NCBI RefSeq assembly: GCF_947654275.1
Contig: NZ_CANTJS010000010.1
Span: 1-64,000, forward strand
From: an uncultured Oscillibacter sp.
GTDB taxonomy: Bacteria > Bacillota > Clostridia > Oscillospirales > Oscillospiraceae
Direction of reading: 5' to 3'
Length of the DNA stretch: 64,000 bases
The notes under the pieces: model-generated
What the model was told of the DNA's origin: nothing
Seen by the model: only the letters and a program-made list of their open reading frames with translations
The model's database searches: none
In this document: one piece after another, positions 1 to 9,286 of the stretch
Position numbering within the stretch: position 1 is the stretch's first letter
Layout of the letters: every line of letters starts with the position of its first letter
Made by a program: the position numbers and the translations under genes

Positions 1-836
1 CCACCATCTACGAGGGCACCAACGAAATTCAGCGGGTGGTCATCGCCTCCCACATTCTGGGCAAGGCCGCCAAAGAGGCCTCCGCCCCCGCCGCGGGCCC
101 CAGAGGCCCTGAGACCGGGGCGAGAAAACGCCAGATTTTCAAGGACGGCGCCCCTCAGGAGAAGGTGGAGGCCCTGGTGGCCAGCCTGAAGAAGGACGGC
201 CACGACTTCACCGTGGGCATCCCCCTGGACACCCCCATCACCCAGGCGGAGCGGGTGGTTTCCGCCGGTCAGGGCATCGGGGAGAAAAAGAACATGAAGC
301 TGATTGAGGACCTGGCCAAAGCCGCCGGCGCCGCCATCGGCTCCAGCCGTCCTGTGGCCGAGACGCTGAAATACGTGCCCCTGAACCGCTATGTGGGCAT
401 GAGCGGCCAGAAGTTCAAGGGAAATCTCTATATTGCCTGCGGCATCTCCGGCGCCATTCAGCACCTGAAGGGCATCAAGGACGCGTCCTGTATTGTGGCG
501 ATCAATAAAAATCCCAATGCGAAAATCTTCAAGAACTGCGACTATGGCATCGTGGGAGATGTGATGGAAATTCTCCCGCTGCTCACCGCCGCCCTGGACA
601 CCGGGGAAAAGCAGCCCGCGCCGCCTATGGTGAAAATGAAGCGGCAGGTTCCCAAAAAGGTCTATCAGCCCCGGAAGCTCTATATCTGCAACGGCTGCGG
701 TCACGAGTACGACCCCATGCAGGGCGACCCGGAGAACGAAGTCAAGCCCGGCACCGCCTTCAAGGACCTGCCCGAGGGCTGGACCTGCCCCCACTGCGGC
801 GAACCGGCAGACCAGTTTATTGAGATCGAGGCGTAA
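1..836 (+). CDS. Acyl-CoA dehydrogenase / EtfA FAD domain / rubredoxin fusion (5' end outside window)
   Basis: The frame is open from base 3 and starts mid-protein with [11 protein letters not shown], the hallmark C-terminal motif of acyl-CoA dehydrogenases. An Ala/Pro linker leads into about 130 residues that match the FAD-binding C-terminal domain of electron-transfer flavoprotein alpha ([48 protein letters not shown]). The last 60 residues are a rubredoxin with two Cys knuckles (CNGCG and CPHCG) and the linker [17 protein letters not shown]. The N-terminal EtfA domain is absent. Known families imply electrons from acyl-CoA oxidation pass through FAD to the rubredoxin iron. The flavodiiron protein two genes downstream is a family that accepts electrons from rubredoxin, so a joint role in O2 or NO removal is inferred. 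Confidence 0.85.
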
Positions 837-845
837 AAAAGAAGT

Positions 846-1682
846 ATGGTCACAAAGGAACAAATCCTGTCGGTTCTGGAGTCCACAAAGCTTCCCTGTG
901 TCCGCATTATCCCAGAGCCTGACGAAACACCCGGTCCCACAGACAGCAGATTCGGTGGGGATTACTGCCTCCCCGCCGGGACGGAAGCGTCCGAGTTGGA
1001 ATTTATGGCACAGATCAACTTTGCCCAGGTCCCCCGTTTGAAGGACTTTCCGGAACGCGGTCTGCTGCAATTCTTCCTCTGCACAGAGGAGGAGAAGTTC
1101 GAGTCTTTCTATGAGGACAGCTTCGCGTGGAAACAGGACGCTGGCTTCTTTCAGGTGCGCTGGTATCCGGAGGTCCCTGAGGACGGCCCCGCCCACCCGG
1201 ATGAGGTCCCTGAGACGCGCTGGGCCATGGACAAGGTCACCGGCGGCATGAAATTTGCCTCCGCAGAGGAGGTTGCTACACTGGGGCTTGGCGTAGAGGG
1301 ATTTTTCTTCGACCTGGGCTCTGAGACCGGGGCAGAAACGGTGGAAAAGCTCTTTCTGGCGGATTACCAGCGTCAGGAGGCCGGCGAGCCGGACGAGAAT
1401 CCCGAAGGCTACGACCTCGGCGACTGCGGCGGCGTGATGGACCTGACCGAGGATTTTGGCAACTGGGGCTTCAAGCTGGGGGGGCACCCATCCCTGCGCA
1501 GCGACGACCTGCGCCTGGAGGACACGGCGTATGCCGCCTATTCCGTCCTGCTGTTCCAGTTCGACCTGACGCTCCTGTCCCAGAGGTGCGATGCAGACAC
1601 CTTCTGCTTCTTCATCAAGCCAGAGGACCTGAAGGCCGGCCGGTTTGACGATATTTTGATGGTACACCACAACTGCTATTGA
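846..1682 (+). CDS. DUF1963 (YwqG-like) protein
   Basis: A 278-residue soluble, acidic protein with no signal peptide or membrane segment. The pattern LGGHPSLRSDDLR followed by LLFQFD and a closing FFIKPEDLKAGRFDD matches the DUF1963/YwqG family, whose biochemical role is unknown. It begins 9 bases after the rubredoxin fusion with only a weak purine-rich ribosome site (AAAAGAAG), so it is probably co-transcribed and poorly translated on its own. It sits between two electron-transfer genes, but nothing in the sequence shows redox chemistry. Confidence 0.7.
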   Translation: MVTKEQILSVLESTKLPCVRIIPEPDETPGPTDSRFGGDYCLPAGTEASELEFMAQINFAQVPRLKDFPERGLLQFFLCTEEEKFESFYEDSFAWKQDAGFFQVRWYPEVPEDGPAHPDEVPETRWAMDKVTGGMKFASAEEVATLGLGVEGFFFDLGSETGAETVEKLFLADYQRQEAGEPDENPEGYDLGDCGGVMDLTEDFGNWGFKLGGHPSLRSDDLRLEDTAYAAYSVLLFQFDLTLLSQRCDADTFCFFIKPEDLKAGRFDDILMVHHNCY

Positions 1683-1703
1683 ACGATAAGGAGGAAACTC
1701 TCT

Positions 1704-2921
1704 ATGTATAATTACCGCATGGTCACCGACGACCTGTACTGGGTAGGCGCGGACGAGCACCGGCTGGCCCTGTTTGAGAACATCCACCCCCTGTACCACG
1801 GCGTTTCCTACAACGCCTATGTCCTGCTGGACGAGAAGACTGTCCTCTTCGACACTGCCGACTGGGCCGTGGGCCGGCAGTTCATCACCAATGTCAAGGC
1901 CGTTCTGGCGGGCCGTCCTCTGGACTACCTGGTCATCAACCATGTGGAGCCGGACCACGCCGCGTCTATCGAGGAAATTCTCCTGCGCTGGCCCGACGTG
2001 AGGATCATCACCACTCCTAAGGCGGTCACTCTGCTCAACCAGTTCGGTTTTGGCCTGGACCCCAGCGCCATTGAAGAGGTGGCCGAGGGGGATACCAAGT
2101 GCTTCGGCAAACACACCGTGGCCTTTGTCTATGCCCCCATGGTCCACTGGCCCGAGGCCATGGTCACCTTCGACACCACCAACGGCGTCCTCTTCTCCGC
2201 CGACGCCTTCGGCTCCTTCCGCTCTCTGGACGGCAAGCTCTTCGCCGACGAGGTGGACTTTGACCGGGAGTGGATCGACGACGCCCGGCGGTACTACACC
2301 AACATCGTGGGCAAGTACGGTCCCCAGGTTGTCGCCCTGCTGAACAAGGCCGCCAGCATCGTGGGCCTGGACAACATCAAGATGCTCTGCCCCCTCCACG
2401 GTCCCATCTGGCGGAAGGACCTGGGCTATATCATCGACAAATACACCCATTGGGCCACCTATGAGCCGGAGGAAAAGGGCGTCATGATTGTCTACGCCTC
2501 CATGTACGGCAACACCGAGGCCGCCGCCGAGGTTCTGGCCTCCAAGCTCACCGCCCGGGGCGTCACCAACACCCGGCTCTACGACGTGTCCAGCACCCAT
2601 GTCAGCTATCTGATTTCGGACCTCTTCAAGTACAGCCACCTGGTTCTGGCCTCCGTCACCTACAACCTGGGGATTTTCCCGCCCATGCACAACTTCCTGA
2701 TGGACATGAAGGCCCTGAACCTCCAGAAGCGCACCGTTGCCATCATGGGCAGCGGCTCCTGGGCCCCCCGCTCCGGCGCGCTGATGCGGGAGGAAATCGA
2801 GAGCCTGAAAAACATGACCGTTCTGGACGAGGAGATGACCGTTACCTCCTCCCTCAAGGCGGATAACGAGTCGGAGATCGACGCCCTGGCCGACGCCATT
2901 GCCGCCTCCATTCAGAAGTAA
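1704..2921 (+). CDS. fprA: Flavodiiron protein (FprA-type A flavoprotein, O2/NO reductase)
   Basis: A 405-residue protein with an N-terminal metallo-beta-lactamase diiron domain and a C-terminal flavodoxin domain. The diiron ligand motif HVEPDH (H80-x-E82-x-D84-H85) is intact and further ligands lie in MVHWPE and CPLHGP. The FMN-binding loop is in IVYASMYGNTEAA, near residue 257. The family reduces O2 to water or NO to N2O in the cytoplasm of anaerobes, usually taking electrons from rubredoxin. A strong AAGGAGG sits before the ATG. The rubredoxin-bearing fusion upstream makes an electron-donor pairing likely. A GC-rich hairpin at 2947-2972 follows the stop. Confidence 0.93.
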   Translation: MYNYRMVTDDLYWVGADEHRLALFENIHPLYHGVSYNAYVLLDEKTVLFDTADWAVGRQFITNVKAVLAGRPLDYLVINHVEPDHAASIEEILLRWPDVRIITTPKAVTLLNQFGFGLDPSAIEEVAEGDTKCFGKHTVAFVYAPMVHWPEAMVTFDTTNGVLFSADAFGSFRSLDGKLFADEVDFDREWIDDARRYYTNIVGKYGPQVVALLNKAASIVGLDNIKMLCPLHGPIWRKDLGYIIDKYTHWATYEPEEKGVMIVYASMYGNTEAAAEVLASKLTARGVTNTRLYDVSSTHVSYLISDLFKYSHLVLASVTYNLGIFPPMHNFLMDMKALNLQKRTVAIMGSGSWAPRSGALMREEIESLKNMTVLDEEMTVTSSLKADNESEIDALADAIAASIQK

Positions 2922-2946
2922 CGCGCTTTGCGCGTCCCCCCGCCGC

Positions 2947-2972
2947 AGGGACCAGCCGGAAGGCTGGTCCCT
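2947..2972 (+). terminator. GC-rich hairpin after fprA
   Basis: A perfect 11-bp stem (AGGGACCAGCC / GGCTGGTCCCT) with a GGAA loop lies 26 bases after the fprA stop. No run of T follows, so it is either a weak terminator or an mRNA 3'-end stabiliser. The rest of 2973-3137 holds no gene; it contains a second hairpin of GGGAGGGG/CCCCTCCC type near 3082-3103. Confidence 0.5.
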
Positions 2973-3137
2973 GTACGCTTCCGTGGCCTTGGGGAGAGGA
3001 ACGCCGGCCCTCCGGCGGAGGACGGAGGCGTGTTCCTTCATGCAGGGGCCGCCCATCCCCTGAAAGCATGGAGGAAGAACGGGAGGGGACAGAGCCCCTC
3101 CCCTGCATGGCATGTTATAAAATGCGGAAATAGGCAC

Positions 3138-3248: not shown

Positions 3249-4093
3249 ATGACCGGAGCCGCGCAGCTCCGGGCCCTGCTGGCCGGGGACCGGATTGTCA
3301 TGGCCCCGGGGGCCTATGATGCCTGGTCCGCCCGGCTGATTGAGGCAGCGGGCTTCCCTGCGGTGTACATGACGGGCTGCGGCGTGTCCGCCAGCGTCCT
3401 GGGCCGGCCGGACATCGGCCTCATCTCCTTTCAGGAGATGGCCGCCGCCCTCCGAAGCACCTGCGCCTGCACCGCCGTCCCCGTCATCGCAGACGCGGAC
3501 AACGGCTATGGCGGAACGTGGTCCGGACCGTGTCGGAGTACGAGGCCGCCGGTGCGGCGGGCATCCAGCTGGAGGACCAGGGCCCAAGCACTGCGGCCAC
3601 ATGGAGGGCAGGCAGCTGATTTCCAGGGAGGAGATGACGGCGAAAATCCGGGCCGCCGTCCACGCCCGGAGGGACCCGGACACCGTGCTGATTGCCCGGA
3701 CCGACGCCGTGGCCGTCACAGGCTTTGACGACGCCTGTCAGCGGGCCGCCGCCTGCCGGGACGCCGGGGCCGACGTGATTTTTGTGGATGCCCTGCAAAC
3801 GCCGGAGCAGGTCCAGAGCGCCGCCGCCCGTGTGGGGGCTCCCCTGATGGCCAACATGGTGGAGCAGGCCCCCCCTGGACACGGCGGACCGCCTTTTCAG
3901 CATGGGCTTCCGCATCGCCATCTGCCCGATGGCTCCCCTCTACGCCGCCACGAAGGCGGCGGGGGACCTGCTGCGGGAAACCGGGGACCTGCGGCCCTGC
4001 ATGGAACGGGAGGTGGATTTCCCCGCCTTCAACCGCATGATCGGTCTGGAGGAGCTCCGGGCTCTGGAAGCCAGCTTTTCCCCCCGGGGCTGA
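3249..4093 (+). pseudogene. Isocitrate lyase/PEP mutase-family gene, disrupted by three frameshifts
   Basis: Pieces in three frames join into one protein of about 280 residues. Frame one gives MAPGAYDAWSARLIEAAGFPAVYMTG and ADADNGYGG; after a missing base near 3513 the second gives VSEYEAAGAAGIQLEDQ; after another missing base near 3584 the third gives PKHCGHMEGR, LIARTDA and ANMVEQ; an extra C in the C7 run at 3868-3875 leads to the last part, MGFRIAICPMAPLYAA. These are motifs of the oxaloacetate decarboxylase / methylisocitrate lyase / phosphonomutase superfamily, including the D-A-D metal site and KHCGH catalytic loop. Promoter and ribosome site are intact, so decay is recent or the sequence has errors. 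Confidence 0.8.
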
Positions 4094-4111
4094 ACATGAA
4101 AGGAGACAGCT

Positions 4112-4858
4112 ATGAACATCCAATACTTTAAGGAATACAGCCGCCACTTAAACCGGGACATGGAATTCAAGGTCTACGGTCAGGGCGGCAAGCCGGTGCT
4201 GGTCTTCCCCTGCCAGAACGGCCGCTTTTTCGACTGGGAGGGCTTCGGCATGCTGGAGACCCTGGGGGACTATCTGGAGAGCGGGAAAATCCAGCTCTTC
4301 ACTGCCGACACCATCGACGGGGAAACCCTCTCCCTGGTGGAGGGCAATCCCTATGACCGGGTCCGGCTTCACGAGGGCTGGTTCAGCTATGTGATGGAGG
4401 AGCTGGTTCCCCGGGTTCGGGAGCTCAACGGCACAGGACAAAGCCTGCTGGTCACAGGCTTTTCCATGGGGGCCTATCACGCGGGCAACTTCTTCTTCCG
4501 GCGGCCGGACGTCTTCGACAGCGTCATCGCCCTCTCCGGCGTTTACGACACCTATGACATGTACAACGGATACATGGACGAGGTGGTCTACGCCAACGAC
4601 CCCTGCGCCAGCATTGCCGGGATGCCGGAGGACCACCCCTATCTCCGGCTGTACAACCAGCGGAAGATTATGATCTGCGTGGGTCAGGGGGCCTGGGAGG
4701 AACCCCTGCTGGCGGGCACCCGCCGTCTGGACGCCGTGCTGCGGAGCAAGGGCGTCCACGCCTGGGTGGACTACTGGGGACACGACGTGAATCACGACTG
4801 GCCCTGGTGGAAAAAGCAGATCCGCTACTTCCTGCCCCATGCCCTGGGGGAGGCCTGA
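4112..4858 (+). CDS. Alpha/beta-hydrolase esterase (esterase D / FrmB-like)
   Basis: A 248-residue cytosolic protein with the serine-hydrolase elbow GFSMGAYH (nucleophile S118) and a C-terminal His in WGHDVNHDW (about H228), typical of the putative esterase family related to S-formylglutathione hydrolase. Its substrate cannot be read from sequence. It starts 18 bases after the stop of the broken PEP-mutase-family gene, preceded by AAAGGAG, so it was probably the second gene of that transcript and may still be expressed from the same promoter. Confidence 0.8.
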   Translation: MNIQYFKEYSRHLNRDMEFKVYGQGGKPVLVFPCQNGRFFDWEGFGMLETLGDYLESGKIQLFTADTIDGETLSLVEGNPYDRVRLHEGWFSYVMEELVPRVRELNGTGQSLLVTGFSMGAYHAGNFFFRRPDVFDSVIALSGVYDTYDMYNGYMDEVVYANDPCASIAGMPEDHPYLRLYNQRKIMICVGQGAWEEPLLAGTRRLDAVLRSKGVHAWVDYWGHDVNHDWPWWKKQIRYFLPHALGEA

Positions 4859-4967
4859 GCGTCAGAGCGGCAGACTAACCCGGCGAAACCACGGGGAAAG
4901 GAGGGCCAGCCATGACCATCGCGCCGGCACGTGAAGCTGGCGGACGGCATGGCCCGGGGACGGCATC

Positions 4968-5627
4968 ATGGAGTTTCAAAGCTGTTTTCCCATATGGGAT
5001 CAACTGACAAAGGCCCAGCAGGACCGCATCCTTGCCGGTCTGGCCTTCCGGCAGATTCAAAAAGGGGCCGTCATTCACAACGGCAGCACGGACTGCGCCG
5101 GGCTGCTGCTGCTGAAATCCGGCCAGCTCCGGGCGTATATCCTCTCGGACGAGGGCCGGGAAATCACCGTCTACCGCCTGTTTGACCGGGATATCTGCCT
5201 GTTTTCCGCCTCCTGCGTGCTGAAAAGCGTACAATTCGACATCACCATCCAGGCGGAGAAGGACACGGAGCTCTGGGTAATTCCCCCGGAGGCATACCGG
5301 AGCCTCATGGAGGAATCCGCCGCCGCGGCCAACTACACCAACGAGGTCATGGCCGCCCGGTTCTCCGAAGTCATGTGGCTGGTGGAGCAGGTCATGTGGA
5401 AAAGCATGGATAAACGGGTGGCCTCGTTTTTGACGGAGGAGTCCGCCATTGAGGGCGGGAACCGGCTGTCCATCACCCACGAGACCATCGCCAGGCACCT
5501 GGGGACCCACCGGGAGGTCATCACCCGGATTCTCCGCTATTTCCAAAGCGAGGGCCTGGTGAAGCTGTCCCGGGGCGTTGTGGAGCTTACCGCCGGGGAG
5601 AGGCTGGCGGAGCTGGGAAACGACTAA
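4968..5627 (+). CDS. Crp/Fnr-family transcriptional regulator
   Basis: A 219-residue protein with an N-terminal cyclic-nucleotide-type beta barrel (residues 15-125) and a C-terminal winged helix whose recognition region is HETIARHLGTHREVITR. It has scattered cysteines (C6, C43, C70, C77) but no classical Fnr Cys cluster, so an oxidant or persulfide signal is possible but unproven. It converges with the rhodanese/thioredoxin operon, which is its likely target. A short frame with a strong ribosome site (AAAGGAGGG before an ATG at 4912) overlaps the start out of frame and would encode a peptide of about 28 residues; it may be a leader or chance. Confidence 0.85.
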   Translation: MEFQSCFPIWDQLTKAQQDRILAGLAFRQIQKGAVIHNGSTDCAGLLLLKSGQLRAYILSDEGREITVYRLFDRDICLFSASCVLKSVQFDITIQAEKDTELWVIPPEAYRSLMEESAAAANYTNEVMAARFSEVMWLVEQVMWKSMDKRVASFLTEESAIEGGNRLSITHETIARHLGTHREVITRILRYFQSEGLVKLSRGVVELTAGERLAELGND

Positions 5628-5651
5628 GCGGAGCTGGAAACAAGCAAACGG

Positions 5652-5689
5652 AATCCCCTCCCTGCGGCTGCCGCAGAGAGGGGATTTTT
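5652..5689 (+). terminator. Rho-independent terminator between convergent genes
   Basis: Stem AATCCCCTC-CTGCGG with a CTG loop pairs with CCGCAG-GAGGGGATT, one mismatch pair, followed by TTTTTG. It ends the Crp/Fnr gene and lies against the stop of the oppositely oriented oxidoreductase. Confidence 0.85.
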
Positions 5690-5690
5690 G

Positions 5691-7385
5691 TCACGGGAGG
5701 TCCATGCCGCACGCCGCGGCCTGTTCAATCAGACGGCGGTCATTGACCACCGCGTCATAGAAGCGGAATCCGCCGGAAAAGTTATAGGTCTCAAAGCCGT
5801 GTCCGGCCAGGATGCGGCAGGCGATGTAGCTCCGCAGGCCGCTCTGGCAGACAACATACACCGGCTTGCCGGCCTCAAGCTCCCCCAGCCGCTCCCGCAG
5901 CGCGTCCACGGGGATGTTCCGGAAGCCCTCAATCCCGCCGCCGGCGTACTCCTGGGGGGTCCGGACGTCCAGCAGCGTCACGCTGCCGTCCCGGGGCAGG
6001 GTCTTCACGTCCTCCAGGCGGAACTGCTTCACAACGCCGCCGGCCAGATTTTCCACCATGAAACCCGCCATATTCACCGGGTCCTTGGCGGAGGAGTAGG
6101 GCGGCGCATAGGCCAGGTCCAGGTCCTTGAGCTGGATGGCCGTCATTCCGGCGCGGATGGCGGTGGCCAGCACGTCAATCCGCTTATCCACGCCCTCATA
6201 GCCCACAATCTGGGCCCCCAGCAGACGGAAGCTTCCCTTTTCAAAGACCACCTTCATGGTCATCACCCTGCCGCCGGGGTAGTAGCCCGCGTGGCTCATG
6301 GGGGACAGCACAACCGCGTCCGCCTCCAGCCCGGCCTTCCGGGCGTTGGTCTCGTTGACGCCGGTGGAGGCCGCTGTCAAATCAAACACCTTTACAACGC
6401 TGCTGCCCTGGCTCCCCGAATACCGGCTGTCCCCGCCGCAGATGTTGTCCGCCGCAATGCGCCCCTGCTTGTTGGCGGGGCCCGCCAGGGAGATCACCGC
6501 GTCCTGTCCGGTGACGAAGTGCTTCACCTGCACCGCGTCGCCTACGGCGTAGATGTCCGGAACAGAGGTCTCCATCCGGTCGTTGACCGCGATACTGCCC
6601 TTCAGGCCCAGCTCCAGGCCCGCCTCCTTCGCCAGGGCGGTGTCCGGGGTGACGCCGATGGCCAGCACCACCATACCGGCATGGAGGGGAGCCCCGTCCT
6701 TCAGCAGCACGTCCACGCCGCCGTCCCGCTCCTCAAAGCCCTCCACCGTCTGCCCCAGGGCCAGCCGGATGCCGTGCCGCCGGGCCTCGCTGTGGATGAA
6801 GGCCGCCATGTCCGGGTCGAAGGGGTTCATCAGCTGGCGGGGCCGCTGGACGACGGTAACCTCCATCCCCAGCTCCCGCAGGTTTTCCGCCAGCTCCAGA
6901 CTGATAAAGCCGCCGCCCGCCAGCACGGCGGACCCGGGATGATGGGCGTTGATAAAGTCCTTGATGCGGAAGGTGTCCTCTACGGTCCGGAGGGTAAACA
7001 CCTTTTCCAGTCCCACGCCGGGAAGCCGGGGCTGTGTGGGCCTGGCTCCGGGGGATAGAATCAGTTTGTCATAGCGCTCCTCAAATTCCGTCCCAGTCTC
7101 CAGATTCTTCACGGAGACGGTTTTCCTCTCCGGGTGAATGGCGGTGACCTCGTGGCGCACCCGCATATCCACCCGGAACCGGGCAAAAAAGCTCTCAGGC
7201 GTCTGGAGGGTCAGGGCCTCGGGGTCCTCAATCACCCCGCCGATGTAGTAGGGCAGGCCGCAGTTGGCATAGGAGACGTATCCCGACCGCTCGAACACCA
7301 CAATCTCCGCCGTCTCGTCCAGCCGCCGCAGCCGGGCCGCCGCCGTGGCTCCTCCCGCCACGCCGCCGATGATGACTACCTTCAT
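5691..7385 (-). CDS. CoA-disulfide reductase-like flavoprotein with C-terminal rhodanese domain
   Basis: A 564-residue protein starting MKVVIIGGVAGGATAAARLRR (Rossmann FAD site), with the class III pyridine-nucleotide disulfide oxidoreductase active-site cysteine in SYANCGLPYYIGG. A second nucleotide site is VLAGGGFISLELAENL. The last 100 residues form a rhodanese domain with catalytic Cys in VVCQSGLRS. The family reduces CoA disulfide, CoA persulfide or polysulfide with NAD(P)H. The start was set at the ATG preceded by AGGAAAGGTGG; an upstream in-frame ATG lies inside the preceding gene. It is the last gene of a five-gene operon with a second rhodanese and a thioredoxin, pointing to sulfane-sulfur or thiol redox control. 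Confidence 0.9.
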   Translation of the reverse strand: MKVVIIGGVAGGATAAARLRRLDETAEIVVFERSGYVSYANCGLPYYIGGVIEDPEALTLQTPESFFARFRVDMRVRHEVTAIHPERKTVSVKNLETGTEFEERYDKLILSPGARPTQPRLPGVGLEKVFTLRTVEDTFRIKDFINAHHPGSAVLAGGGFISLELAENLRELGMEVTVVQRPRQLMNPFDPDMAAFIHSEARRHGIRLALGQTVEGFEERDGGVDVLLKDGAPLHAGMVVLAIGVTPDTALAKEAGLELGLKGSIAVNDRMETSVPDIYAVGDAVQVKHFVTGQDAVISLAGPANKQGRIAADNICGGDSRYSGSQGSSVVKVFDLTAASTGVNETNARKAGLEADAVVLSPMSHAGYYPGGRVMTMKVVFEKGSFRLLGAQIVGYEGVDKRIDVLATAIRAGMTAIQLKDLDLAYAPPYSSAKDPVNMAGFMVENLAGGVVKQFRLEDVKTLPRDGSVTLLDVRTPQEYAGGGIEGFRNIPVDALRERLGELEAGKPVYVVCQSGLRSYIACRILAGHGFETYNFSGGFRFYDAVVNDRRLIEQAAACGMDLP

Positions 7386-7386
7386 G

Positions 7387-7701
7387 TCAGCGTTCCACCT
7401 TTCCTGTATAGGCGGCAATCCCGCCAATATTCTTTACATTCGAATAGCCCATTCGGGTCAGTATCCGTACCGCCTGACTGCTCCGGGCGCCGCTGTGGCA
7501 GTAGACGAACAGGGGCGCGTCCTTCCCTGCCGCCTCCTCCCGGTCAAGGGTCTGAAGCGGCGCGTTCCGGCTTCCGGGGATGTGGCCCTCCCGGTACTCC
7601 TGGGGCGTGCGGACGTCCAGCAGCACCGCGCCGGGGATCTCCCGGAACTCGCTCACGCCCTGGTCAATACGGGGGCCGCTCAGGAAATCAAACAATCCCA
7701 T
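7387..7701 (-). CDS. Single-domain rhodanese
   Basis: A 104-residue protein with the rhodanese pattern LLDVRTPQEYREGHIPGSRN and the catalytic loop YCHSGARS, with Cys as the persulfide carrier. It would transfer sulfane sulfur in the cytoplasm. Its stop lies one base from the start of the rhodanese-fused flavoprotein and it begins just after trxA, so the three are very likely translated from one message and may relay persulfide and electrons. Confidence 0.9.
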   Translation of the reverse strand: MGLFDFLSGPRIDQGVSEFREIPGAVLLDVRTPQEYREGHIPGSRNAPLQTLDREEAAGKDAPLFVYCHSGARSSQAVRILTRMGYSNVKNIGGIAAYTGKVER

Positions 7702-7713
7702 GGCGCGTCCTCC

Positions 7714-8019
7714 TTACAGCAGGGCGAGAATCTGGCTTTTGGGCCTTGCGCCTGTGGCCTGATTCACGACGGTTCCGTCTTTCACCACCACCATGGCGGG
7801 AATGCCCATGACGCCGAACTGTCCGGCCAGCTCCGGCTGCTCATCCACGTTGATCTTGCCCACCTTGATGTCGGCGCGCTCCCGGGCAATCTCATCCAGA
7901 ATGGGGCCGACCATGCGGCAGGGGCCGCACCAGGGGGCCCAGAAATCCAGAAGAACGGGCCGGTCCGAGCGGAGCACCTCGCCGGCGAAGTTATCCTTGC
8001 TAATATTGATGACAGACAT
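7714..8019 (-). CDS. trxA: Thioredoxin
   Basis: A 101-residue classical thioredoxin with the redox motif WAPWCGPCR near residues 28-36 and the cis-proline loop GIPAMVVVKDG. It carries reducing equivalents to disulfide or persulfide substrates. It has a strong AAAAGGAGG ribosome site. In this operon it lies between an iron-sulfur membrane protein and the rhodanese, so it may resolve persulfides formed by those enzymes. Confidence 0.95.
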   Translation of the reverse strand: MSVINISKDNFAGEVLRSDRPVLLDFWAPWCGPCRMVGPILDEIARERADIKVGKINVDEQPELAGQFGVMGIPAMVVVKDGTVVNQATGARPKSQILALL

Positions 8020-8066
8020 TGTATGTCCTCCTTTTCTGATGTGGTGATTCTATGATACCAGAAGCG

Positions 8067-8690
8067 TCACGGCTCTTCCGTGACAATGTCACCCTTCGGG
8101 CTTTTCGCTTTGCAGATCAGCTGGGTCATGGTTCCCATGGGGCAGCAGACGCACCAGCTGCGGGGCTTGAACAGAACCATGGTGATGAGGCCCAGGACGG
8201 TGGAGGTCAGCATGACGCTGTAAAAGCCGAAGGCGAACTGAGCGACGCCGGGGGAAAAGAGGGTGCCGTGATAGGCCCAGTGCCAGGGCAGCTTGAAGGT
8301 CCACAGCAGCGTCACCGCCTGCCTGAGCGTCCGCGCCCCGGCAAACACCAGATACGTGTTCCAGAGCATCTGGAAAAACATGACGAAGAAGAACAGCAAA
8401 AATCCATAGCGGAATCCCCTGCTCTTCATCCACCTGGGAATATCCTTTTTTCGGGACAGCCCAAACCGGCCTCCCAGCAGGCCGAACAGCTGTCCCCGGC
8501 CGCAGTACCGGTTGCAATAGCCCTTGGTGCCTTTGACCAGTGAAATGATAAGCGGAATGCAGAAAAACAGCATGCCCAGCCAGGCAAACAGGATATTGAA
8601 AAAACCCAGCGCCATATAGGTCAGCTCTACCATCCACAGATAGTCATACCAGCGTTTTTTCTGGTTTTTCGGGTTTTTTGTGCTTTTCAT
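8067..8690 (-). CDS. Membrane 4Fe-4S protein (NapH/polyferredoxin-like)
   Basis: A 207-residue protein with about four hydrophobic helices and two cysteine clusters, CNRYCGRG early and [14 protein letters not shown] near the C-terminus. This layout is typical of the NosR/NapH/CcoG-like half-ferredoxin membrane family that moves electrons across or along the membrane. It overlaps the ferredoxin gene by 4 bases and so is translationally coupled to it. Its electron acceptor is unknown. A GTCACGG/CCGTGAC hairpin lies at its stop codon (8066-8084). Confidence 0.8.
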
Positions 8691-8899
8691 GCCTGCGCCT
8701 CCCGAATCTCAATGACGGACGCGGGGCATTCCCTTGCGCACTTCCCGCAGCCCACGCAGCGCGTCCTGTCCACCCGGGCGTAAATTCCGTTCCGAATCTG
8801 TATGGCGTTCATCGGACAGACCCTGGCGCAGCAGCCGCAGGCAACGCAGAGATCAGTGTCAGCGAAGGCCTTTCGTCTCGTTCTTGTTTTGGGTTCCAT
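8687..8899 (-). CDS. 2x[4Fe-4S] ferredoxin
   Basis: A 70-residue protein with two CxxCxxCxxxC clusters: [12 protein letters not shown] and [12 protein letters not shown]. The start at 8899 was chosen because GAGGGAGGGC precedes it at correct distance; a longer in-frame extension upstream has no ribosome site and crosses a large palindrome. It overlaps the start of the membrane iron-sulfur gene by 4 bases. It is probably the soluble electron partner of that membrane protein and the first gene of the redox operon. Confidence 0.88.
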
Positions 8900-8923
8900 A
8901 ACATGCCCTCCCTCATGGATTGT

Positions 8924-9004
8924 ACGGTCAGCACACCTGAAAATCAGTATATACCGATTTTCAGGCAGCGGCGGGCCGTCCGGATTTTCCCGGGTGCTGA
9001 CCGT
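8924..9004. promoter_or_regulatory. Nested palindromes upstream of the ferredoxin operon
   Basis: A 30-bp near-perfect palindrome at 8936-8965 has arms CCTGAAAATC and GATTTTCAGG around GTATATAC. It is flanked by an outer perfect 11-bp inverted repeat, ACGGTCAGCAC at 8924-8934 and GTGCTGACCGT at 8994-9004. The inner palindrome lies 37 bases before the ferredoxin start and contains a TATACT -10-like hexamer on the minus strand. A regulator operator, perhaps for the Crp/Fnr protein, is the simplest reading. No gene is seen in 8900-9286. Confidence 0.6.
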
Positions 9005-9286
9005 GAGGTCCGCCGCAGGGCTGAACGGAAGCCTCTGCTTCGCTTCAGCTGCGGTGACTGTACGCATGATATCAGAAATCATGGGCGGCTTCCGTGACAA
9101 GATCACAGAAGCGGAAGCGCCGGGCGAACACGATGGCCGGAACCGGAGAAATGCCCGGCGGGCAGGGCCCGTGAGGCAGCAGGGAAACAGGCTGAACCGG
9201 CAGGCCCTTCCAGGAACCGCCGGGTTGTCCGGCGGCCGGGGAGGGGGCTGTTTTCTTTGTGGGAGGGAGGACGTGGGTGCAAAGCA

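Follow-up and report, generated by a model that had tools for sequence, protein, structure and literature searches.

A probable butyryl-CoA oxygen oxidoreductase locus in an uncultured Oscillibacter sp., with relatives whose rubredoxin domain lacks its cysteines

Introduction

The first 2,921 nucleotides of a 64,000-nucleotide stretch of DNA from an uncultured Oscillibacter sp. (assembly GCF_947654275.1, contig NZ_CANTJS010000010.1; the whole stretch is called the window here) carry the 3′ part of a gene for a fusion of acyl-CoA dehydrogenase (ACAD), the C-terminal domain of EtfA [EtfA(C)], and rubredoxin, and downstream of it a gene for a flavodiiron protein (FDP). The closest described system is butyryl-CoA oxygen oxidoreductase (BOOR), first described by Bystrom & Wolthers 2024 (as cited in PMC12288474, PMC12630350, and PMC13404960). 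In Fusobacterium nucleatum, a bicistronic operon (FN1423-FN1424) encodes an FDP together with a fusion of Bcd, EtfA(C), and rubredoxin (BCR); according to PMC12288474, the two proteins form a complex, published as an α4β4 assembly, that reduces O2 and is without nitric oxide (NO) reductase activity. The same review places the butyryl/crotonyl couple near −10 mV and states that many Firmicutes, butyrogenic gut bacteria included, encode BOOR, whose role is repeated in PMC12630350. A July 2026 preprint (PMC13404960) reports that gut Clostridia, including Roseburia inulinivorans, Eisenbergiella tayi (Fig. 5 legend), and F. prausnitzii, encode an Rrf2 regulator next to BOOR. Rubredoxin iron also feeds an FDP in flavorubredoxin, in NADH-rubredoxin oxidoreductase fusions, and in Moorella Hrb (PMC12288474); at the present locus the donor would be an acyl-CoA, unlike the NAD(P)H of those systems.

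Here, we report that the Oscillibacter fusion and its FDP are very likely (probability about 0.92) the BCR and FDP subunits of a BOOR that passes electrons through rubredoxin and reduces O2 to water. An original prediction made from the window alone had proposed this route, from acyl-CoA through flavin adenine dinucleotide (FAD) and rubredoxin to the FDP and O2. Its match to the domain order and adjacent FDP of the F. nucleatum BOOR supports the proposal by analogy; the mechanism, probably right, had been published before. The locus, Rrf2 gene included, would be a further example of BOOR, a kind of system already known from Fusobacterium; what the analysis contributes is the recovered 5′ end of the fusion gene, a strict gene pairing, an intervening DUF1963 gene, and a lineage with a cysteine-less rubredoxin domain.

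Results and discussion

The window starts at the first base of its contig (C10), in an assembly of 111 contigs and 3.05 Mb (G000), and window bases 1 to 55 exactly repeat the final 55 bases of another contig, C83. Joining C83:6176-7250 to window positions 1 to 836 across this end overlap gives a single ATG-started frame of 636 amino acids; the gene is thus cut by a contig end, not truncated, and its ACAD core is intact once joined. A first conservation search took in the source genome together with 24 others of its genus and 15 of its order, 40 in all, and found the full-length fusion in 12 of the 24 and 1 of the 15, with 2 more same-genus genomes carrying it split at contig ends. These uninterrupted homologs rule out a truncated or chimeric assembly artifact. 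The fusion was not found in the other 10 same-genus genomes, four of which are at least 90% complete.

Pfam models for the N-terminal, middle, and C-terminal parts of an ACAD (together residues 6 to 377), for ETF_alpha (PF00766, residues 438 to 518, E = 6.7e-28), and for Rubredoxin (PF00301, residues 586 to 631, E = 8.8e-18) all score above their curated cut-offs in the joined protein, which confirms the three-part fusion, with an FDP nearby, that had been read from its 3′ part. As the original prediction held, the EtfA N-terminal domain is missing: its model is absent among the seven Pfam families listed for the protein. None of 25 listed NCBIfam models passes its own cut-off. The rubredoxin motifs, CNGC and CPHC, retain all four cysteine ligands. 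Glu363, in an IYEGT motif, is invariant in 37 aligned sequences (2 of them two-domain fusions), and from ACAD enzymology we take it to be the usual catalytic base.

Among solved chains, the ACAD part is nearest in sequence to Clostridioides difficile Bcd (5ol2_C), and a fold search with the structure model of a relative's BCR (L121, 93% identical to the window's; mean predicted local distance difference test [pLDDT] 85.9, predicted template modeling score [pTM] 0.70) likewise returned that chain. The EtfA part corresponds in alignment to the C-terminal ~120 residues of 1efp_A, 5ol2_A, and 1efv_A, which we take to be the EtfA proteins of P. denitrificans, C. difficile, and human. The fusion therefore shares a homologous ACAD domain and an EtfA FAD domain with the bifurcating Bcd-EtfAB of C. 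difficile (5ol2) but differs from it in having neither EtfB nor the EtfA N-terminal domain and in the added rubredoxin, so that it presumably has no place for a bifurcating flavin. Reading of C83 and of the genes flanking the fusion gave no etfB, the next gene upstream encoding the Rrf2 regulator; this agrees with the earlier suggestion that a normal EtfB partner may not be needed. A bifurcating Bcd-Etf was ruled out on the lack of EtfB beside the fusion and on the EtfA part being C-terminal only.

The FDP carries an HxExDH...H...D...H set whose seven positions are identical in all 156 aligned FDPs, a set that includes the window's FDP and a second one from the same genome; we take these positions to be the diiron ligands. 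The second FDP gene lies on contig C37 (L006:3278-4492), with no fusion in the 8-kb stretch around it. Coordinates are collected in Table 1.

Table 1. Features of the locus (window positions unless a contig is named)
Feature	Position	Strand	Basis
BCR fusion gene, 5′ part (residues 1-359)	contig C83, from base 6176		
BCR fusion gene, 3′ part (residues 360-636 + stop)	3..836	+	frame open from the window's first bases
Glu363 codon, IYEGT motif	12..14	+	alignment
EtfA C-terminal FAD domain (residues ~437-560)	234..605	+	Pfam; alignment with EtfA structures
Rubredoxin domain, CxxC...CxxC (residues 586-631)	681..818	+	Pfam; alignment
DUF1963 protein gene, 278 aa, between BCR and FDP	846..1682	+	Pfam, E = 7.9e-24
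Two-domain (class A-like) FDP, 405 aa	1704..2921	+	Pfam ODP/lactamase and flavodoxin
FDP lactamase/diiron domain	~1806-2402	+	
FDP flavodoxin domain	~2487-2765	+	

A class-level search matched the EtfA-rubredoxin part, at a threshold of 1e-35, in 32 of 391 genomes (own included), so the fusion is lacking in most Clostridia examined. Thirty-one of these matches are three-domain fusions; the remaining one, in G352, is an ACAD-EtfA(C) protein only. From a scan of named genomes, the best 80 of at least 595 stretches were taken. Oscillospiraceae are closest among these 80, followed by Lachnospiraceae, Clostridium, Tissierella, and Peptoniphilaceae, among others, and Fusobacterium gastrosuis, Brachyspira, and a Synergistaceae metagenome-assembled genome (MAG) are also included; the last 14 (L187-L200) match about the EtfA part only and were excluded from counts. 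The BCRs of Eisenbergiella tayi (76.5% identical to the window's) and F. gastrosuis (73.3% identical over residues 1 to 633) both have an FDP downstream, and a three-domain BCR occurs in 22 of 61 genomes of the latter's family. On these comparisons, the window BCR belongs by descent to the same family as the Fusobacterium BCR.

Pooling gave 168 loci, of which 166 carry the C-terminal part and 161 extend to the rubredoxin end. The FDP gene is next on the same strand in every three-domain locus with at least 1 kb of downstream DNA (155/155), and it starts within the shorter downstream DNA of four of the other six (L048, L154, L185, and L242). The pool leaves out, besides L187-L200, duplicates with shorter flanking DNA together with weaker matches (L008-L037 and L056-L085), L236, L237, L258 (a partial second copy, in G484), and two-domain matches without a locus; some genomes appear twice, having entered from two collections. 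The two genes stay tightly together across the loci of Clostridia, Fusobacterium, and Brachyspira. The original prediction had named a failure of the FDP to be conserved beside the fusion as refuting it; the adjacency found here does not refute it and rules out the FDP as a chance neighbor. As a small control, no FprA match was found in the 8 to 12 kb around other ACADs of the genome on C38, C66, and C11 (an ACAD on C39 lies outside this comparison).

Counting the window's, the pool holds 135 distinct BCR-FDP pairs in which BCR has at least 590 amino acids. Pairwise distances among BCRs and among FDPs, compared for 88 proteins each, correlate with r = 0.83, a value reached in none of 2,000 permutations (highest, 0.25); because shared species history contributes, this correlation is no proof of contact. 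In three loci (L090, L096, and L098), a second FDP gene lies upstream of BCR on the same strand, placing the fusion between two FDPs, and the same-genus genome G018 has a BCR-FDP pair on each of two contigs (L048 and L051).

The structure of the genes, the domains and conserved residues of their products, and the adjacency and co-variation of the pair are observed at the locus and its relatives; by analogy with the F. nucleatum enzyme, we infer that this bacterium performs the same reaction with electrons passing in the same order, along with crotonyl-CoA recycling and regulation. The dehydrogenase domain would take butyryl-CoA (or a short-chain acyl-CoA resembling it) and oxidize it to crotonyl-CoA, and electrons from the domain's FADH2 would pass to the FAD bound in the tethered C-terminal part of EtfA; since this part is proposed to replace a free electron transfer flavoprotein (ETF), no EtfB would be needed. 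From that FAD, electrons would reach the rubredoxin iron and then, in the FDP, the flavin mononucleotide (FMN) and the diiron site, where O2 would be reduced to water. Crotonyl-CoA could be re-reduced by the cell's separate Bcd-EtfAB enzymes, which, together with Rnf, would make O2 removal energy conserving.

Candidate Bcd/Etf-type genes and RnfC are present in the genome, a setting that may correspond to that of F. nucleatum. EtfB and EtfA on C38 score above NCBIfam cut-offs as electron-transfer subunits of acryloyl-CoA reductase, next to best matches, both below cut-off, to 3-hydroxybutyryl-CoA dehydrogenase and an acryloyl-CoA reductase/Bcd-type dehydrogenase. C66 has a second Bcd-type gene (below cut-off), an EtfB (above, again as an acryloyl-CoA reductase electron-transfer subunit), and a crotonase (below); on C39, by reading, a third EtfB-EtfA pair adjoins an ACAD. 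RnfC, the Rnf subunit looked at, is above cut-off on C70. This gene set would fit the published energy-conserving BOOR model, in which Bcd-EtfAB re-reduces the crotonyl-CoA produced by BOOR.

Several points weigh against assigning the locus to BOOR as described. Although the FDP gene lies downstream of BCR on the same strand, as originally proposed, the two do not directly adjoin: a DUF1963 gene parts them, unlike in the bicistronic F. nucleatum operon, which also differs from the window in that the latter has an Rrf2 gene just upstream. Such an Rrf2 gene was found, with the window's as query, in only 27 of 116 loci, some of which have little upstream DNA. The join of C83 to C10 is based on the 55-base end overlap and on uninterrupted homologs. 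The identity figure for Fusobacterium is that of F. gastrosuis, a species other than that of FN1424/FN1423, and no FDP is present in the short downstream DNA of L129 (428 bp) and L163 (214 bp). Because the matches to 3-hydroxybutyryl-CoA dehydrogenase, Bcd-type dehydrogenases, and crotonase fall below their cut-offs, butyryl-CoA formation is no more than likely. Finally, the rubredoxin step is not shared by all family members, the domain being cysteine-less or missing in some relatives.

The cysteine-less form is found in the Anaerococcus genus, where 29 of 31 genomes encode a full-length fusion. In all 29 fusions, the four rubredoxin cysteines are replaced (by Asp, Ser, Ser, and Ser), so that the domain reads (I/V/L)DxGSGYEY...WVSPVSGE, and each fusion retains its FDP downstream (L204-L232; further cysteine-less loci are L110, L112, and L175-L177, and the BCR of G366 is identical to that of Anaerococcus provencensis, L176). 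CxxC...CxxC is kept in the other 127 of the 161 three-domain loci, the window's among them. The Pfam Rubredoxin model still scores above cut-off for the altered domain. Its ratio of nonsynonymous to synonymous substitution rates (dN/dS; NG86, nonindependent pairs with dS of 0.05 to 1.5) is 0.11, compared with 0.27, 0.17, and 0.15 in three cysteine-bearing groups. The domain is under purifying selection and is not decaying, although its constraint is ordinary relative to the linkers, which in Anaerococcus likewise evolve slowly (dN/dS = 0.15). A tree of 119 sequences, which took in 12 of the 28 distinct cysteine-less ones, places these in one group (Shimodaira-Hasegawa-like approximate likelihood ratio test [SH-aLRT], 99), so the cysteine loss looks like a single event. 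A structure model of a cysteine-less BCR has a mean pLDDT of 84.8 and a pTM of 0.67, from an alignment that drew in cysteine-bearing sequences; in both BCR models, pLDDT blocks over the rubredoxin region are ~70 to 83. At least one separate short rubredoxin open reading frame (ORF) is present in all 31 Anaerococcus-genus genomes.

Elsewhere the domain is missing altogether. In a Tissierellia MAG (L186), the fusion (86-1771) ends after the EtfA domain and is followed by a 404-amino-acid two-domain FDP (1886-3097), itself without rubredoxin. The open-access literature searched, as far as its accessible text extends, gave no account of a cysteine-less rubredoxin in BOOR. Relatives with a cysteine-less or missing rubredoxin suggest that members of the family may be able to dispense with the rubredoxin step, and the rubredoxin iron may be either dispensable, with FAD passing electrons directly to FMN, or replaceable by free rubredoxin. 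Anaerococcus offers a natural experiment on whether the rubredoxin iron is required or replaceable in the BOOR electron path. We tentatively suggest, as an idea somewhat more likely wrong than right, that Anaerococcus has a BOOR without need of this iron, its domain serving as a metal-free docking piece either for direct FAD-to-FMN transfer or for docking a free rubredoxin, and that the window's rubredoxin fold may likewise serve docking as much as electron transfer.

Two-domain ACAD-EtfA(C) proteins of ~560 to 590 amino acids without rubredoxin occur at L117:2660-6656, L116:4972-6690, and L233, with no FDP match in the flanking DNA examined. That of L117 stands between genes reading as 3-hydroxybutyryl-CoA dehydrogenase and CoA-transferase; judged from sequence, the three may be Bcd enzymes with an FAD relay of their own. 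A stop breaks an ACAD-EtfA(C) frame of A. provencensis (G366) at L115:3626-4849; this frame is divergent to an FDP gene.

Membership in the FDP family is not known to predict whether O2 or NO is the substrate, and we count this against reading the pair as mainly an NO reductase for nitrosative defense with acyl-CoA as its donor. That reading can point to the best PDB sequence matches of the FDP, 6etb_A and 1ycf_A, which are named nitric oxide reductase flavorubredoxin or nitric oxide reductase, and to the upstream Rrf2 protein, which has the three cysteines and an aspartate like that of NsrR, an NO sensor (PMC13404960). The F. nucleatum BOOR, however, reduced O2 but not NO (PMC12288474), which makes an NO reductase improbable here; of the two substrates originally proposed for the FDP, the O2 half fits BOOR and the NO half is unlikely by analogy. 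Still less credible is a crotonyl-CoA reductase fed through rubredoxin, with the FDP a neighbor that has a separate job. The potential of the couple, near −10 mV (PMC12288474), would let the chemistry run either way, but the invariant adjacency and co-variation of the pair, the published F. nucleatum complex, and the separate Bcd-EtfB-EtfA-type genes of this genome all speak against it.

The more serious alternative, although still unlikely, is that rubredoxin is chiefly a docking module and that the EtfA-domain FAD reduces the FDP FMN directly, in the family and possibly here. The 29 Anaerococcus-genus BCRs that keep both domain and FDP without the four cysteines favor it, as do the low dN/dS of their domain and the Tissierellia MAG, which retains an FDP with no fused rubredoxin. 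Yet most three-domain loci, including the window's, retain the cysteine motifs, the free rubredoxins of the Anaerococcus genus could replace the fused one, and the slow linkers there make the constraint on the domain ordinary. For the cysteine-bearing loci, the window's included, the published rubredoxin route of BOOR remains the best explanation.

Neighboring genes

The DUF1963 gene begins 9 bases after the BCR stop codon and is followed, after 21 bases, by the FDP gene. A DUF1963 gene holds this place in 3 of the 116 relatives' loci (L039, L040, and L121), the FDP gene being directly next in most. The same gap holds a further ORF in L040 and a different small gene in L042.

Upstream, the gene for the Rrf2-family regulator (PF02082), on C83, ends 39 bp before the BCR start codon. 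The three cluster-type cysteines are common to 30, 30, and 29 of 30 Rrf2 sequences compared, and the aspartate to 29 (the window's sequence is included; two distant matches, L135 and L136, were dropped). This putative iron-sulfur regulator probably controls the BCR-FDP locus. The arrangement resembles the Rrf2 (UniRef C0FN14 type)-BOOR neighborhoods of gut Clostridia described in PMC13404960, in which an Rrf2 gene adjoins BCR-FDP and the protein has three cysteines and an NsrR-like aspartate; unlike those, the present locus has no rubrerythrin or RNR gene among the C83 genes read or in a Pfam scan of window positions 3249 to 9106.

A thioredoxin gene lies ~4.8 kb downstream. Between positions 3249 and 4131, a PEP mutase-family gene appears as two overlapping frames and looks frameshifted. 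At positions 4968 to 9106, a Crp-type regulator gene adjoins an oppositely oriented group encoding a pyridine nucleotide-disulphide oxidoreductase with a rhodanese domain, a rhodanese, the thioredoxin, a protein without a Pfam match, and a 4Fe-4S protein.

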